The notes beneath the pieces were generated by a model. It made no database searches. It saw only the letters and a program-made list of their open reading frames with translations, and was not told the DNA's origin. A stretch of DNA of 33,895 nucleotides. Source: Ignavibacteriaceae bacterium (GTDB taxonomy: Bacteria; Bacteroidota; Ignavibacteria; Ignavibacteriales; Ignavibacteriaceae). The position numbers were made by a program, and so were the translations under genes. Positions 16,516 to 25,816 of the stretch are shown piece after piece. How positions within the stretch are numbered: position 1 is the stretch's first letter; the number at the start of each line of letters is the position of its first letter. The stretch spans positions 1 through 33,895 of the forward strand of contig JABWCL010000040.1 of assembly GCA_013360295.1 (NCBI GenBank), given 5' to 3'.

Positions 16516-17256
16516 TTACCAGTCTTTCTCTGTTTTCACTTTTACCCCTGCCTTTTTCTTTAGTTTGTTTTGCAGGTCCTGTTCGTTGTTCTTTATCGCA
16601 TTGAGCATACGTTCAGCGTCGGCTTTAGAAATTTTTGGGGGCGGCGAGTTCTTCTGCTGCTGATCCTGCTTATCCTGCTGATCGTTTTTGTTCTGATCCT
16701 GCTTCTGCTGATCATCTTTTTTCTGATCCTGTTTCTGGTCCTTATTCTGATCCTGCTCGTTTTTATTCTGATCTTTGTTCTGGTCTTTATTCTGATCCTG
16801 CTTATTCTGCTGCTGGTCGTTTTTATTTTGCTGCTGCAGCTGTTTCAGGGCATACGAAAGATTGTACTTTGCCTCCGCATCTCCGGGTTTTATCTTCAGC
16901 GCGTTTTTATAACTCTCTATGCTTTCTTTGTACTTTTTTTCCTTAAGCAGAGTGTTCCCCATATTGTAATGAGCAGAAAATTTTTCATCATCCTGCTTTG
17001 CTTTTGCCAGCGAGCCCTGGAATGATTTCAGCGCTTCATCATATTTCCCCTGCTTGTAGTAAGAGGTTCCAAGATTAAAGTTGGAAACAAAACTCTCCGC
17101 GTTCTTCTCAAGACCTTTCCTGAACTTAATTTCAGACTCGGTGAAGTTCTTGTCTTTATATAGGTCGACACCTTCATTAACAAGCGACCTTTCCGACTGG
17201 GCATTAAGCGGAACGGATACAAAACATAAAGCAAAAAAGAATACAAAAAATTTCAT
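16516..17256 (-). CDS. batC: BatC: TPR protein with Gln/Asn/Lys/Asp-rich tail
   Basis: A 246-residue exported protein: signal peptide 1-19 (VPLNAQ), three or so tetratricopeptide repeats (about 25-135; VSNFNLGTSYYKQGKYDEALKSF, SAHYNMGNTLLKEKKYKESIESY), then a low-complexity tract at about 140-203 made of QDQNKDQNK-type units, and a basic C-terminal helix KISKADAERMLNAIKNNEQDLQNKLKKKAG. The TPR plus the AERMLNAIxxxE helix is usual for BatC. The tract is long and probably disordered. It lies between batB (3-nt gap) and batD (1-nt gap). The opposite strand shows a long hydrophobic frame that is only a shadow of this tract. Confidence 0.9.
   Translation of the reverse strand: MKFFVFFFALCFVSVPLNAQSERSLVNEGVDLYKDKNFTESEIKFRKGLEKNAESFVSNFNLGTSYYKQGKYDEALKSFQGSLAKAKQDDEKFSAHYNMGNTLLKEKKYKESIESYKNALKIKPGDAEAKYNLSYALKQLQQQNKNDQQQNKQDQNKDQNKDQNKNEQDQNKDQKQDQKKDDQQKQDQNKNDQQDKQDQQQKNSPPPKISKADAERMLNAIKNNEQDLQNKLKKKAGVKVKTEKDW
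16648..16839 (-). repeat. Short tandem repeat coding the BatC low-complexity tract
   Basis: About 190 bp of imperfect repeats rich in CAG, CAA, AAA, AAC and GAT codons encode the Gln/Asn/Lys/Asp-rich stretch of BatC (residues about 140-203). Repeats such as CAGAATAAAGACCAGAAC suggest slippage-prone DNA whose length could vary between strains. Confidence 0.75.
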
Positions 17257-19296: not shown

Positions 19297-20224
19297 TTTT
19301 CTCTCCCAGCGCCGAAGGCGATTTAATATCCCTGCTGATGCAGAGCCTGACTATCTCCCTTGCCTGTGTCATCATCTCTTCATTTATTCCCGCGAGGGGT
19401 ACAAACTTCGCGAACTTAACCAGATCGGCATTATTCAGAAATGACTCTGTAACTTTTGCGACCTCACTCATATTAAGTCCGGTAGAGAGAGATCTGCATA
19501 TTTCACCCGTAGTCATCTCAAGAGCAGGAATCTTAAGTTTCTCTTCAAAGTACCACCGCACTATTTCCGTGATCTCAGTGTGGTACTCCCTTATCTTCCC
19601 GTTCTGCCAAAGTTTCTTTGCCTCAAGGTCAGCCAGCTTTTGCATCACCCTCTCATCAACCGGTATTTCAGGAACGACGGGAATTTCCTCCTTTTTTTCT
19701 TTGCGGGGATAAAAGCGGTAAATCAGGTAACCGATTAAAATTATTCCGGCAACGATGCCAATCCATAAAAGGATTTCCGCTGTGCTTAATGGTATCCTTC
19801 TCGGTTCGTTTATGTCTTTTATCTCCGCCGAGGTATCAACGTCAACAATGTTAATAAAAAGTATTGTCGAATCAACTCTTACCCGTTGGGTATCTCCTGA
19901 CGCGGCAAAGAAGATGACTTCGCCTCCAGAAATAACCTTAGAACCGGAATCATATCCGGCAACGGTATATGTAATTTCCACATTCTGGATACCTCCTTCA
20001 GCCTTAACCAGCGGCTGAGATACGGAGATCAAATCAAGTCCGCCCAAGTTTTTCTGAATATCCCACAAAGCGTATTTATAATTGTCCGGATGTTTTAATT
20101 TCACGCGGTAGTTTATAAAATCACCGATCAGGTAAGATGAAGAATCCGCCCCGGCTCCCGCGGAAAAATTCTGCGGGAAGAGAGAGATTGTAAATACAAA
20201 AAATAAGATGACGTTCTTTACCAC
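19289..20224 (-). CDS. Small BatD-like membrane protein (Bat operon)
   Basis: A 311-residue protein with a signal peptide (1-21), a beta-rich periplasmic domain (about 25-145), one membrane segment (about 149-170, ILLWIGIVAGIILIGYLIYRF) and a helical cytoplasmic domain (about 195-298). The last part, GKIREYHTEITEIVRWYFEEKL...MTTGEICRSL...LVKFAKF, resembles the tail of BatD in pattern. It looks like a short BatD relative with a single beta domain. Between the DUF58 gene (7-nt overlap) and batA (8-nt overlap), it is clearly a cotranscribed part of the module, in the position where many Bacteroidota operons carry an unnamed gene. Function unknown. Confidence 0.82.
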   Translation of the reverse strand: MVKNVILFFVFTISLFPQNFSAGAGADSSSYLIGDFINYRVKLKHPDNYKYALWDIQKNLGGLDLISVSQPLVKAEGGIQNVEITYTVAGYDSGSKVISGGEVIFFAASGDTQRVRVDSTILFINIVDVDTSAEIKDINEPRRIPLSTAEILLWIGIVAGIILIGYLIYRFYPRKEKKEEIPVVPEIPVDERVMQKLADLEAKKLWQNGKIREYHTEITEIVRWYFEEKLKIPALEMTTGEICRSLSTGLNMSEVAKVTESFLNNADLVKFAKFVPLAGINEEMMTQAREIVRLCISRDIKSPSALGEKNV

Positions 20225-21093
20225 CGCTTCTCCCTTATCTTAAAGAACCTTATAAGCGGTTTAACGTATGACTCGTGGGTATTAACGTTAACCGAATCAA
20301 GCTTTGCGCTGTTAAAAAGATTTTTCCGCGAGGCTTCAAGTTCCCTGACCCTGCTGAAGTACCAAAGCCTGAAACTGTTATCCGAGGTATCTATTATCCG
20401 TTCTTCACCGGTCTCCGGATCTACTACGGTCAGCAGTCCGATCCCCGGCATACCGGCTTCCCTTTTGTCGGAGAGTACTATGCCTACAAGGTCGTGTTTT
20501 TTGCCGACTATTCTTAATATTTTTTCGTATCCTTCATCCTGGAAATCCGAGATTAGAAAGACTATGCTCTTCTTCTTTATCGCTTTGTTCATATACTCCA
20601 GCGCTGTTTTCAGGCTTGTCCCTTTACCGGATGGAGTGAACTTAAGAAGGTCACTGATTATCCTCAGGACGTGGCTCTTTGTTTTGGCGGGAGGAATAAA
20701 TCTTTCAACCTTATCGGTAAAAAGCATCATCCCGACTTTGTCGTTATTCTTCAGCGCGGAAAACGCTAGCAGAGCGCTAATTTCAGCGGCAATCTGCTGT
20801 TTGGTCTGCGACTCGCTGCCGAAATACTGTGAACCGCTAAGGTCCACCAACAGAATAACCGTCAGTTCCCTCTCCTCTTCAAATATCTTCACAAAAGGAT
20901 GGCCGAAACGCGCGGTAACATTCCAGTCAATTGAGCGGATATCATCACCGAACTGGTATTCACGCACTTCGGAAAATTCCATTCCGCGCCCTTTAAAGAC
21001 AGAGTGGTACTCTCCCGAGAAAACCTGGTTGACAAGCACACGGGTTTTTATTTCAATCTGCTTTACTTTTGCAGAGAGTTCTTTAGTGAGCAT
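20218..21093 (-). CDS. DUF58 domain-containing protein
   Basis: A 291-residue cytoplasmic protein with the DUF58 signature RGMEFSEVREYQFGDDIRSIDWNVTARFG (about residues 36-64), then KIFEEERELTVILLVDLSGS (69-88), which leads into a VWA-like fold with the metal-binding DxSxS motif (Asp84, Ser86, Ser88). DUF58 proteins accompany MoxR AAA+ ATPases in most genomes and are thought to be their partner, feeding substrates or acting as adaptor. It begins 6 nt after the moxR stop and overlaps the next gene by 7 nt. Confidence 0.92.
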   Translation of the reverse strand: MLTKELSAKVKQIEIKTRVLVNQVFSGEYHSVFKGRGMEFSEVREYQFGDDIRSIDWNVTARFGHPFVKIFEEERELTVILLVDLSGSQYFGSESQTKQQIAAEISALLAFSALKNNDKVGMMLFTDKVERFIPPAKTKSHVLRIISDLLKFTPSGKGTSLKTALEYMNKAIKKKSIVFLISDFQDEGYEKILRIVGKKHDLVGIVLSDKREAGMPGIGLLTVVDPETGEERIIDTSDNSFRLWYFSRVRELEASRKNLFNSAKLDSVNVNTHESYVKPLIRFFKIREKRW

Positions 21094-21099
21094 AAACTA

Positions 21100-22083
21100 T
21101 TAGGGAACTTCTATCTTGTTCAGGATTTCCTGGATGATGTTCTCTGAGGTGATCTCTTCCGCTTCAGCCTGGTAAGTCACCGCGATCCTGTGGCGTAGAA
21201 CATCCTGGGCGATCGAGCGGACATCCTCCGGCACTACGTATCCCCTTCTCTTGATGAAGGCAAATGCCCTCGCGCCGAGAAGCAGGTTTATGGATGCGCG
21301 TGGGGAAGCGCCGTAACTGATCAGGTCGGCTAACTGGTTCAAACCGTAATCTTTCGGGGATCTGGTAGCGAAGACAATATCGAGGATATATTTTTCGATT
21401 TTTTCATCAACGTAAATTTCATCCACTAATGCCCTGCCCCTGAAAATATCTTCGGGGGAAATGACCGGCTTTACTATCTCCTCAACATTGTTAATATGCT
21501 GCCTCATAATCTTCTGCTCCTCATCGCGTGAAGGGTAGGTGATCTTCACCTTCAGCATAAACCTGTCAACCTGCGCTTCAGGAAGAGGGTATGTTCCTTC
21601 CTGTTCAATCGGGTTCTGCGTGGCAAGCACAAGGAAAGGCTCTTCGAGTTTGAAAGTCTCATCGCCTATCGTCACCTGGCGTTCCTGCATCGCTTCGAGT
21701 AATGCACTCTGGACTTTAGCAGGGGCGCGGTTAATTTCATCAGCGAGGATGAAATTGGCGAAGATCGGCCCGCGGCGGATGAAAAAATTACCGTCTTTCT
21801 GATTGTAAATCTGGGTACCGATCAGATCCGCCGGCAGAAGGTCGGGCGTGAACTGAAGCCTGTGGAATTTGGCTTTCATCGCGGCGGCGAGTGTCTTTAT
21901 CGCGAGTGTTTTCGCGAGTCCGGGTACGCCTTCAAGCAGAATATGACCATTTGACAGAAGCCCGATGAGGAGCCGTTCAACCATCTGTTTCTGGCCAATG
22001 ATCACTTTCCCTATCTCCGTCTGGAGAAGCTCAACGAAAGCGCTTTCATTTTTAATTTTTTCATTAAGGGCAGTAATATCCAC
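21100..22083 (-). CDS. MoxR-family AAA+ ATPase
   Basis: A 327-residue AAA+ chaperone-like ATPase. Walker A is GVPGLAKT (52-59), Walker B ILADE (about 112-116), sensor 1 ATQNP (154-158), and DRF (173-175) follows. The C-terminal lid domain is normal. MoxR ATPases help assemble or remodel protein complexes, generally together with VWA proteins, which fits the BatA/BatB neighbours. The start is GTG at 22083; AGGA lies 11 nt upstream. It is the first gene of the bat operon, with a Bacteroidota-type promoter 58 nt before the start codon. It is separated from the upstream rlmI-like gene by 107 nt. Confidence 0.95.
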   Translation of the reverse strand: MDITALNEKIKNESAFVELLQTEIGKVIIGQKQMVERLLIGLLSNGHILLEGVPGLAKTLAIKTLAAAMKAKFHRLQFTPDLLPADLIGTQIYNQKDGNFFIRRGPIFANFILADEINRAPAKVQSALLEAMQERQVTIGDETFKLEEPFLVLATQNPIEQEGTYPLPEAQVDRFMLKVKITYPSRDEEQKIMRQHINNVEEIVKPVISPEDIFRGRALVDEIYVDEKIEKYILDIVFATRSPKDYGLNQLADLISYGASPRASINLLLGARAFAFIKRRGYVVPEDVRSIAQDVLRHRIAVTYQAEAEEITSENIIQEILNKIEVP

Positions 22084-22190: not shown

Positions 22191-23366
22191 TCAGATATTA
22201 AAGTAAACCGCGAATTTGAGGTATGAGGTCTCCGGCATTGCAGGCAGAACCGGGTGATCAAGGGAAGCCCCGTTATAATATATCAGCCGGAGGTTTTTCT
22301 TCAGTTTATTCCCCGCTATCCCTACAGCCTCGAATAATTCCTCCTTTGAGATATGGTACGAACAGGAGGATGTAACCAGTATCCCCGGTTTTCGCAATAT
22401 TGAAAGAGCCATCCGGTTAAGTTTTTCGTATCCCTTCAGCGCACTGAATTTTGATTTTTTATTTTTCGCGAACGCGGGCGGATCAATAATAATTACGTCA
22501 TAGGTTTCGCCCCTCTGCGCGCAAGCCTCAAGAAAATCAAAAACATCGCTCTCGATAAAAGCGTGCTCTGTCTGAAAGCCGTTTAGATTAAAATTATTCT
22601 GAGCTTTTTGCAGCTCAGTCCTGGATGAATCAACAAAAACAACATCCTCCGCCAGCCCATAGACGGCGTTAAGCCCGAACCCTCCCTGGTTGCAGAAGGC
22701 ATCAAGCACTTTTTTACTTCCGCAAAATTTCCGGATGAATGAACGGTTATCACACTGGTCAAAATAGAACCCTGTTTTCTGGCTGTTACTAAAATCTATT
22801 TCGTAGCGGATTGTTCCATCGCTGATGATTTCAATTCCCTCCGCGCCGTGATAAACGGTATCATTTATGTTCAGGTGTTCAAGTTCCCTGAAGTATTTTT
22901 CATTTCTGGTGAAAATATTCTGAGCGCCGAGGTCATTAACAAGGATGGAAGTGATGATCCCTATATTTTTTTCCATCCCCGCGGAGTTAACCTGCATTAC
23001 AAAAGTGAGATTGTACTTATCAATAATCAGGCCGGGAAGCCTGTCACTTTCACTGAATACCAGCCTGAAAGAATCCCGGTTCGGGTAACACGATTTCCGG
23101 AGTTCATACGCGCTCAGGATCTTTGTGCGGAAATAATCCTCAAGGTTACCCTGAAAGGATTCGTCCATCATTCTCACGGCAATAAGGGAATTATTATTAT
23201 AAAAGCCATACCCAAGGGAGTGCCCGGATGCGTTAAAAACCTGAACGATTTCGCCGGGCGCCGGTGTTCCTTCAACCGAATGAATCTCATTGCTGAAAAC
23301 CCACTGATGCCCCGCTTTTATCCTGCGGTCCTCTTTATGCTTTAGTATGGCTTTTGGGTAAGACAT
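22191..23366 (-). CDS. Class I SAM-dependent rRNA methyltransferase, RlmI-like
   Basis: A 391-residue cytoplasmic RNA m5C-type methyltransferase. Residues 1-75 form the PUA RNA-binding domain (RRIKAGHQWVFSNEI, GEIVQVFNASG). The catalytic part has QKTGFYFDQ (196-204), motif I VLDAFCNQGGFG (about 220-231), DPPAF (295-299) and SCSYH (334-338), whose Cys is the expected nucleophile. RlmI modifies C1962 of E. coli 23S rRNA; the substrate here is not proven. It is the last gene of the pgeF-to-rlmI run, 4 nt after the Ppx-DUF302 gene. The 107-nt gap to moxR contains a promoter but no terminator that I can see. Confidence 0.9.
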   Translation of the reverse strand: MSYPKAILKHKEDRRIKAGHQWVFSNEIHSVEGTPAPGEIVQVFNASGHSLGYGFYNNNSLIAVRMMDESFQGNLEDYFRTKILSAYELRKSCYPNRDSFRLVFSESDRLPGLIIDKYNLTFVMQVNSAGMEKNIGIITSILVNDLGAQNIFTRNEKYFRELEHLNINDTVYHGAEGIEIISDGTIRYEIDFSNSQKTGFYFDQCDNRSFIRKFCGSKKVLDAFCNQGGFGLNAVYGLAEDVVFVDSSRTELQKAQNNFNLNGFQTEHAFIESDVFDFLEACAQRGETYDVIIIDPPAFAKNKKSKFSALKGYEKLNRMALSILRKPGILVTSSCSYHISKEELFEAVGIAGNKLKKNLRLIYYNGASLDHPVLPAMPETSYLKFAVYFNI

Positions 23367-23370
23367 TTAA

Positions 23371-24768
23371 TTAAATACCTGCGAGAACACGGCTGAGTTT
23401 CTCACTCACTTCCGCGGCGACGGCAGCGAGTTCGGGATTATTAACAGCCTGCATAGAAGTCATTGGATTAACAACGGATACCTTGCACTGTTTTCCGGGT
23501 TCGGTTTCCTGGACGACAACGTTGCAGGGAAGCAGGACACCAATGCTCTCCTCGCTTGAGAGGGCCTTATAAGCGAACGGCGGATTGCACGCTCCTAGTA
23601 TTTTGTACTTCCGGAAATCAACATCAAGTTTCTTCTTGAGTGTATCCTTAACGTCAATTTCAGTAAGGACGCCGAATCCTTCTTTCTTTAATTCTTCCGT
23701 CGCCTTTTCTATAACGGCGGTGAATTCCATTTCGACTACTTTTGAATTATGATAGCTCACGTATTTCCTTTCATTTTTATCAGGTTTGATGATATCAGAT
23801 CCGTTTTGGTTTCGTTTATCCGCGATCTGATTTTCAAACATTTCAAATATGACACCTTCGCGGAGGGAATAGTCGCTGTAATATACTTCCGAAACTTTTA
23901 ACCGTTCCAAAATCCGGTCGTAGATCAGCGCGCCGCTCATAATTATATCCGCGCGCTTTGGTTCCATCCCGGGGATCTTCAACCTCTCATCCGGGGTTCT
24001 GGCGAATAAAACCGTATCCCTGATTTTTCTGAAGTCATCAGCAGAAAAATACTGAATATGGTCCTTCCACGAGTAATGTTTTGCGGCTTTAACCAGATTA
24101 TAAAGGCTGTAAGCTGTGCCCGATGATGCCACTATTCTTGAAGTATCGTACTTTGAGAGAGAGTCAACAACCGGATCCAGGATACGGTCAATCTCATTCC
24201 TGGCTTTATATAATCCCTCATAAGTAATAACATAGTCGGGAAAATATTTTTTTGTCAGCCGAACCGCGCCAAGCGGGACGCTTGCCACATACTCCATTTT
24301 ATTGTAATCACCATAAACAAATTCCGTGCTTCCGCCGCCAAGATCAACCGAAAGGATATGCCCCTCGCCGGGCCTGATGTAGCGCAGCACTCCCTTAAAG
24401 ATCAGTTCGGCTTCCCTTTCACCGGATAGTATCTCAATATCAAGCCCGCAACGGTCTTTTACGGCTTTAAGAAATTCATCGGAATTTTTAGCTTCTCTGA
24501 CAGCGCTGGTGGCGACAATCTTTATCTGCGGGTAATAAAAAGACCAGGATGCTCGCATTCTGCATATTACATCAAGAGCGTAGTCAATCTTGGACTGCGG
24601 TATATAACCCGGCGTCGCAAGATCGTGTTCGGCAAGCCTGACTATTTCTTTTCTTCTTGTTAAAACGTGCAGATGATCCCGCCTGGTTATCTCAGCAACA
24701 ATCATATGAAAGGAATTTGATCCGAGGTCCAGCGCGGCGTAGTATTTCTGATTTTTATTTTTCCCCAT
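23371..24768 (-). CDS. Ppx/GppA phosphatase fused to a C-terminal DUF302 domain
   Basis: A 465-residue protein. Residues about 8-312 form a Ppx/GppA domain (acetate-kinase/HSP70 fold): phosphate loops ALDLGSNSFHMIVAEI (12-27) and SVDLGGGSTEFVYG (140-153), and IVASSGTAYSLYNL (212-225). This family hydrolyses polyphosphate or pppGpp. After a charged linker (313-336) residues about 337-462 match DUF302: ATEELKKEGFGVLTEIDVKDTL, KILGACNPPFAYKAL (Cys394) and IGVLLPCNVVVQE (Cys415), then VSVVNPMTSM. The frame is continuous, so this is a true fusion and not a sequencing artefact I can detect. DUF302 function is unknown. The usual HD-like C-terminal part of long Ppx/GppA proteins is absent. It overlaps the glycosyltransferase gene by 14 nt, so the two are coupled. 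Confidence 0.9.
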   Translation of the reverse strand: MGKNKNQKYYAALDLGSNSFHMIVAEITRRDHLHVLTRRKEIVRLAEHDLATPGYIPQSKIDYALDVICRMRASWSFYYPQIKIVATSAVREAKNSDEFLKAVKDRCGLDIEILSGEREAELIFKGVLRYIRPGEGHILSVDLGGGSTEFVYGDYNKMEYVASVPLGAVRLTKKYFPDYVITYEGLYKARNEIDRILDPVVDSLSKYDTSRIVASSGTAYSLYNLVKAAKHYSWKDHIQYFSADDFRKIRDTVLFARTPDERLKIPGMEPKRADIIMSGALIYDRILERLKVSEVYYSDYSLREGVIFEMFENQIADKRNQNGSDIIKPDKNERKYVSYHNSKVVEMEFTAVIEKATEELKKEGFGVLTEIDVKDTLKKKLDVDFRKYKILGACNPPFAYKALSSEESIGVLLPCNVVVQETEPGKQCKVSVVNPMTSMQAVNNPELAAVAAEVSEKLSRVLAGI

Positions 24769-25816
24769 TCAGAATCCTTTCACACACCTGCAGGACGTCA
24801 TCAACGGTAATGTCGTTAATTTTGTCCGTTTTCCTGAGATTGATTTTATTTTCTCCGGGAGGTGCCCAGTTATCCGGATTTGTCGGCCCGAACAGAGATA
24901 TCTGCGGGACCAGAGTCGCGCCGGCAACGTGCATTATCCCCGTATCATTTGTAATGAATAAATCGCTTTCCGATATCATCGCCGCGAGAGAAGTGATGCT
25001 TCTGTTTTTATAAACGGGCACATCTGTCGTCAATCTGTTCTTTACGAGGTTTAGCTGCTGCTCATCGGCGCTGCTCCCTGTAAGATACACCGATGCGCCA
25101 TACCGGGAGATGAGCACATTAATAAGAGTTGAAAAATTTCCCGCATCCCACACATTTGGCGGTTTCCCCGCGCCAACGTGCAACCCTATAAGATGTTTAC
25201 TGTCTAACTTTTTAATGCTGATAAATTCTTTGGCTTCCTTTATGTCTTCCCGATCAAATGTGACTTCACCGCGGATGGCTGCATTTTCGGCGTTCAAAGG
25301 TTTAAGTATTTCGAGCACAAACCGGTAAACGCTCCTCTCAGGTGCATCAGCCCAATTGAGTTCCACCGGGACGTGAAAGAAGTAGCTTCCTTCGTTCACT
25401 TTACCATTGAGGCTTGAGGGACCGATTTTAAGCCCGGACTTCGACAGTCCCGCGAGCAGGCAGCTTGTATATGAAATTGAAACTGTTCCCGGAACGAGAA
25501 CAAAATCGAAACCCTGCCGCAGGAATCCTGCCAGTTTATTAAAATAAGCGGGCGAATAAATCTGTTTTTTATCGAAGACGAACAAATTGTCGATATACCG
25601 GTTTTTAGTAAGGGCGAAAAAATTATCCGGACTTGCAAGCAGGTGTACTTCGACTGAAGGAAATTTTTCCTTCACCGCTCTGAAAAGCGGCACTGTGGCA
25701 AGCATATCTCCCAACTGGTTGTGCTGCCTGATTATCAGGCACCGTTCCGGTCTCGCAGGGAGTTCAGCCCTTTGGGGTGTTACTCCGAAGAGTAATTTCG
25801 AAATGAAGTGGATCAT
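24755..25816 (-). CDS. Glycosyltransferase family 9 (heptosyltransferase-like)
   Basis: A 353-residue GT-B glycosyltransferase resembling ADP-heptose:LPS heptosyltransferases. N-terminal half: CLIIRQHNQLGDMLATVPLFRAVKEKFP (about 27-54), the GDMLAT loop typical of the family. C-terminal half: HLIGLHVGAGKPPNVWDAGNFSTLINVL (about 203-230), LTGSSADEQ, and DLFITNDTGIMHVAGATLVPQISLFGPTNPDNWAPPG (about 281-318), the sugar-nucleotide site. It probably adds a sugar to an envelope glycolipid; no LPS cluster surrounds it. It starts in the TAATG overlap with the DUF4834-like gene and overlaps the next gene by 14 nt. Confidence 0.9.
   Translation of the reverse strand: MIHFISKLLFGVTPQRAELPARPERCLIIRQHNQLGDMLATVPLFRAVKEKFPSVEVHLLASPDNFFALTKNRYIDNLFVFDKKQIYSPAYFNKLAGFLRQGFDFVLVPGTVSISYTSCLLAGLSKSGLKIGPSSLNGKVNEGSYFFHVPVELNWADAPERSVYRFVLEILKPLNAENAAIRGEVTFDREDIKEAKEFISIKKLDSKHLIGLHVGAGKPPNVWDAGNFSTLINVLISRYGASVYLTGSSADEQQLNLVKNRLTTDVPVYKNRSITSLAAMISESDLFITNDTGIMHVAGATLVPQISLFGPTNPDNWAPPGENKINLRKTDKINDITVDDVLQVCERILNGEK

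Follow-up and report, generated by a model that had tools for sequence, protein, structure and literature searches.

When two domains share one open reading frame in a single draft genome, does the frame report a functional link between them or an accident between neighbouring genes? The question is raised by a contig of an Ignavibacteriaceae bacterium (GCA_013360295.1, JABWCL010000040.1), of which positions 1 to 33,895 (33,895 nt, hereafter the window) were analysed. A sequence-only reading of this DNA had described a continuous 465-residue frame that joins a Ppx/GppA-type phosphatase to DUF302, and had taken the fusion to tie DUF302 to phosphate or alarmone metabolism. The frame and its domains, a conserved gene order, relatives that keep the two genes apart, and start signals still in place together lead us to consider it likely that two adjacent members of an old gene row were joined locally by loss of the ppx stop, and that DUF302 does its own job.

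The frame itself was confirmed: positions 23371–24768 of the minus strand form a single ATG-started open reading frame of 465 aa that is open throughout, with no internal stop. It comprises a Ppx/GppA domain (residues 24–312; 23833–24699, minus strand), a linker outside both domain matches (residues 314–336; 23761–23829, minus strand) and a DUF302 core domain (residues 371–435; 23464–23658, minus strand). Both domain matches are far beyond chance, with Pfam scores of 219.9 bits for Ppx-GppA (PF02541; gathering cut-off 27) and 78.5 bits for DUF302 (PF03625; cut-off 23). Since a joint MAFFT alignment of Ppx-only and DUF302-only sequences with the fused protein had placed Ppx C-termini over DUF302, the two halves were aligned apart.

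The phosphate loop of the first half is intact, as the sequence-only reading had held. Residues E119, D142, G144–S147 (GGGS) and E149 were invariant across 22 aligned Ppx sequences (21 relatives plus the fused protein; some relatives that were found, e.g. L008 of G025, were left out of this alignment), and the fused protein thus carries both the catalytic glutamate and the GGGS phosphate-binding stretch. By the numbering of the structure match (query 108 opposite chain 110), E119 lies opposite position 121 of E. coli PPX, and E121 of that enzyme we take to be the catalytic base. Residues 11–312 align with residues 7–309 of the 315-residue protein 3mdq (E 1.7e-40), and the half keeps the active-site residues of the short Ppx/GppA phosphatases (PF02541; PDB 3mdq, 1t6c). 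However, these relatives stop about 20 residues or less past the LREG motif, whereas the fused frame continues into DUF302. The NCBIfam model exo_poly_only (TIGR03706) gave 242.7 bits, below its curated cut-off of 307, so the model does not fix whether the substrate is polyphosphate or pppGpp; the Ppx half most likely hydrolyses one of these, as do named family members. A second, diverged Ppx is encoded on another contig of the source genome.

The second half matches standalone DUF302 proteins (PF03625; PDB 1j3m, 1q9u), with residues 357–463 aligning with 1j3m (E 3.2e-21) and residues 340–461 with 1q9u (E 2.9e-13), which bears out its earlier assignment to DUF302. Both cysteine motifs are retained as well: C394 (GACNPP) and C415 (LPCN) were invariant in 27 of 27 aligned sequences (26 relatives plus the fused protein), a trait (ACNP, LPCN) judged on an alignment of near relatives rather than on the whole DUF302 family. 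The fused frame holds the only DUF302 match in the source genome at E 0.001 or better. Standalone DUF302 proteins have no Ppx in frame ahead of them, in contrast to the fused protein, in which Ppx lies in frame upstream.

The same locus was then compared across relatives. In seven members of the family (G008, G009, G017, G027, G033, G034 and G099), ppx stands beside DUF302 at the syntenic place. Each of these tandem pairs has at least one stop codon between the two genes, and the ppx stop lies 35–145 nt ahead of the DUF302 ATG; the fused frame of the window has no such stop. A stop in the homologues near residues 313–336 had been named beforehand as a refuting observation, and its presence in 7/7 pairs refutes a conserved fused architecture, leaving the continuity of the frame in the source genome unrefuted. 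In three of the seven, ppx and DUF302 share a reading frame, with two intervening stops in G008 and one each in G017 and G027. Since a single stop separates the genes of G017 and G027, one substitution there would yield the same kind of fusion. The Ppx of G027 is highly diverged (26% identity).

The gene row around the pair is shared in part. In the window, it runs on one strand as PgeF-like (Cu-oxidase_4), EamA, FolB, FolK, dNK, a 71-aa protein, a family 9 glycosyltransferase (GT9; 24755–25816, minus strand), ppx/DUF302, a PUA and SAM-dependent methyltransferase (22191–23366, minus strand; presumably RlmI-like), a MoxR-type AAA ATPase (21100–22083, minus strand) and a DUF58/VWA protein (20218–21093, minus strand). 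The end of GT9 overlaps the start of ppx by 14 nt. Upstream, the tandem pair of the seven relatives has the same order as the window, FolB-FolK-dNK-(small protein)-(GT9)-ppx-DUF302; DUF302 directly follows ppx downstream of FolB-FolK-dNK in G008, G009, G017, G027, G033 and G034, and GT9 is absent from the G017 and G027 loci. Downstream, the methyltransferase-MoxR-DUF58 set is common to the window and, among the seven, to G008, G017 and G033 only, with other genes following DUF302 in G009, G027, G034 and G099. Because the row mixes folate, nucleoside kinase, glycosyltransferase and methyltransferase genes, the adjacency of ppx and DUF302 within it implies little.

In the one congener compared (G001), the gene order of the window is kept and matched proteins are 56–92% identical, and this ppx is missing: DUF302 is a gene of its own directly after GT9 (L036:5192-7881), with flanking neighbours kept on both sides. 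Loss of ppx in G001 is the simpler reading, because other members of the family have ppx at this place.

The junction has the features of a former intergenic spacer. Similarity to Ppx fades near residue 312, and standalone DUF302 genes begin at the position equivalent to 337. The 23 linker codons in between are AT-rich (36% G+C) and spacer-like, correspond to the 35–145 nt spacer of the seven relatives, and are matched in the 22-row alignment by no Ppx relative beyond its own tail. That the linker is open is not beyond chance: when its 69 bases were shuffled 20000 times, 4081 of the products, about a fifth, also lacked an in-frame stop. We propose that the locus began as an old pair, a ppx gene for a short Ppx/GppA-type phosphatase and an adjacent DUF302 gene. 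The ppx stop codon, or its frame, would have been lost, either in this lineage or in the assembly; the intervening spacer happened to be open and would have become the linker. A ribosome finishing Ppx would then read on to give the 465-residue fusion.

Loss in the assembly means that the missing stop is a sequencing or assembly error and that the cell has two genes. This forms a sub-case of the local join, with which its probability overlaps, and we regard it as possible, at well under an even chance. The assembly is a draft of 92 contigs, 10 of the 23 linker codons are one substitution away from a stop, and all seven tandem-pair relatives have separate genes. In addition, the +1 frame of the linker has no stop, and the next +1 stop is a TGA that overlaps the GTG codon of residue 337, so a single-base indel would give an overlapping gene pair. 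However, the frame is intact over the remainder of both domains, and the sequence carries no sign of error.

The signals for a separate DUF302 start are still in place within the fused frame. A putative internal DUF302 gene (23371–23760, minus strand; 129 aa) starts at a GTG at residue 337, preceded by GAAAGGA (23766–23772, minus strand), a ribosome-binding-like site 5 nt before it (distances in this paragraph were counted by eye). V337 aligned with the start methionine in 24 of the 26 other DUF302 genes, and the true ATG of G017 falls there too; the DUF302 of L084 starts two residues before the equivalent position. GAAAGGA occurs at the same distance before the DUF302 ATG in the congener G001, and GGA lies 6–8 nt before the DUF302 start in seven other homologous loci (5–8 nt over the eight homologues and this locus). 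The start codon is GTG in the fused gene as opposed to ATG in the homologues; a separate DUF302 start may have become less necessary here.

Pairing energies, calculated for about 300 kb of the source genome plus the window, were dropped as support for the GTG337 site, which they did not separate from background: of the 2960 internal in-frame start codons sampled, 13% scored as well, as did 22% of first start codons. The mean was −2.7 for first starts of long open reading frames and −2.5 for internal starts; because the two scarcely differ, the source genome may lean little on ribosome-binding sites. The GTG337 start is credible because its position is conserved, not because of its pairing energy, and DUF302 can probably still initiate there on its own. 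If the sequence is right, we predict that both the fusion and a free 129-residue DUF302 protein are made, the latter as a second product from the internal GTG, and DUF302 most likely works separately, with no need of the Ppx half. That the 465-residue frame is never read through and yields two proteins only would agree with the positional conservation of the internal start signals. Yet a ribosome at the end of ppx, meeting no in-frame stop, has no known reason to halt, and we consider this outcome very improbable.

A rival reading is that joining Ppx to DUF302 was selected and gave a functional bifunctional enzyme, with the phosphatase regulated or localised by its DUF302 half. The whole protein was searched against 80 family genomes, and none of the nine matches at E 1e-62 or better was a second uninterrupted fusion (a weaker one could fall below this threshold). 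In the 96 order genomes that are at least 90% complete, 142 of 143 DUF302 matches lay in frames no longer than 204 aa, and the remaining one was the frame of 465 aa. At the level of the phylum, no second Ppx-DUF302 case was found among the listed DUF302 matches of 238 genomes, and a whole-protein search of 395 genomes at E 1e-66 or better, below which a more distant fusion could fall, returned only the two-gene locus of G017 and a plain Ppx besides the fused frame. Scanning contigs with the full-length protein returned four loci that each carry one domain only, and of 399 matching plasmid records none covers at least 80% of the query at a single site. Thus the uninterrupted frame was found in one genome only, and there is no family of conserved fusions among the genomes searched. 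Nor was a conserved linker combined with loss of the internal start found, since these searches gave no other fused sequence and the GTG and GAAAGGA are retained.

Other long DUF302 frames were read by eye as translations and rejected as Ppx fusions. Besides the fused frame, those over 300 aa among the listed phylum matches were G309:C15, G309:C1 and G260, which are double DUF302 proteins, and G148:C32, a lipoprotein-like protein of 318 aa without Ppx. A 230-aa frame in G265 has one DUF302 domain and is extended upstream, again without Ppx. The double DUF302 proteins look exported (L098:930-1853 and L101:796-1710 in G309; L099:1064-2089 in G260). Their ACNP and LPCN cysteines are replaced and, because they lack these motifs, the two cysteines are not universal in DUF302.

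A selected bifunctional enzyme would fit the real continuous frame, the two intact domains and the tendency of the genes to be neighbours: DUF302 lies within 500 nt of ppx, always on the same strand, in at least 7 of the 96 order genomes including this one, compared with 0.18 pairs expected within 1.5 kb. Ppx matches were thresholded at 1e-30, which misses weak Ppx neighbours such as that of G027, an additional ppx-DUF302 pair. However, the fusion occurs in one genome among those searched, the congener G001 has DUF302 without this ppx, most genomes place other genes beside DUF302, and the row is otherwise mixed; we therefore judge selection for a bifunctional enzyme unlikely. For the same reasons, namely one case, separate genes in 7/7 relatives, a congener without ppx and bshB1 as a neighbour elsewhere, the proposal that ties DUF302 to the metabolism of phosphate or alarmones lacks good support. 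What remains of it is the adjacency in at least 7/96 genomes plus G027, in a mixed housekeeping row. No result points to a conserved requirement for linking the two domains, and the neighbour of DUF302 varies between families. More generally, a lone open frame in one draft genome should not be taken for a functional link when relatives have separate genes and the downstream one retains a start of its own, and a local accident, as this seems to be, says little on the role of DUF302.

The neighbours of DUF302 elsewhere point in another direction. In 29 of the 96 order genomes, DUF302 and the bacillithiol deacetylase gene bshB1 lie no more than 5 kb apart. The two genes share a strand in each of the 30 pairs, where 0.36 pairs are expected by chance for genomes of 3.7 Mb. 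Linkage to bshB1, the foremost of the other upstream neighbours of DUF302, is confined to the sister families f2 and f3 and linkage to ppx to f1, so each linkage may be one inherited arrangement rather than many independent events. Five genomes have DUF302 and no bshB1 match at E 1e-40 (G033, G073, G090, G468 and G037, the last with a weak DUF302), which makes DUF302 independent of bshB1. Among 20 selected DUF302 loci, none of them beside ppx, 12 had a PIG-L cluster gene nearby, 5 had MoxR, 3 had a thioredoxin and 2 had a P-type metal ATPase. In the PIG-L cluster, the member scanned was bshB1 (280 bits, cut-off 182.5) and the others were assigned by clustering; one member each of the thioredoxin and P-type ATPase clusters was scanned and the rest were assigned by clustering, and the MoxR group was assigned by reading of the sequences.

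Given its two invariant cysteines and the bshB1, thioredoxin and rhodanese neighbours elsewhere, DUF302 is perhaps thiol-related. The bshB1 linkage is a better lead on its function than the adjacency to ppx, and makes a thiol-related role testable. At the locus itself, the thiol idea is unsupported, because bshB1 is on another contig in the source genome and, among the 96 order genomes, the linkage was not seen in near relatives within f1. A further scenario combines the two predicted products: DUF302, taken as thiol-linked because of the bshB1 linkage in the sister families, would pair between the fusion and the free protein and so tether or tune the phosphatase on a thiol signal. We hold this to be improbable, and a local join with DUF302 working on its own remains our preferred explanation.

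In the literature searched, neither a Ppx-DUF302 fusion nor a linkage between DUF302 and bshB1 was found described, and no paper there mentions both DUF302 and bacillithiol. The text available from PMC5037610 describes DUF302 as a protein of unknown function, places a DUF302 gene beside sox genes in Thermithiobacillus, speculates on a role in trithionate oxidation, and mentions a possible DUF302 dimer suggested by conserved-domain analysis. In the part of PMC7760498 that was available, DUF302 and exopolyphosphatase are mentioned in unrelated places. PMC6193735 was set aside as a DUF302 source, as the protein named in the portion available is DUF3021.

Several other features were recorded along the way. 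Examples of bshB1-DUF302 loci are L070:3356-6013, L092:5203-6389 and L091:6108-7286, and in several loci the two are separated by a gene for a DASS anion symporter or one resembling hydroxyisobutyrate dehydrogenase. Thioredoxin genes lie near DUF302 at L077:2242-5640, L085:3768-5502 and L086:4067-4910, with rhodaneses at L077 and L085 and a YgaP-like membrane protein at L085; heavy-metal P-type ATPases lie near DUF302 at L083:4250-8375 and L087:4250-7984. These neighbours, too, are thiol or metal genes. Within the window, other proteins have C-terminal sorting domains, which hint at the Bacteroidota and related groups, and overlapping tandem repeats (units of 12, 24, 45 and 60 bases) occur at 16714–16827, inside the gene at 16516–17256.
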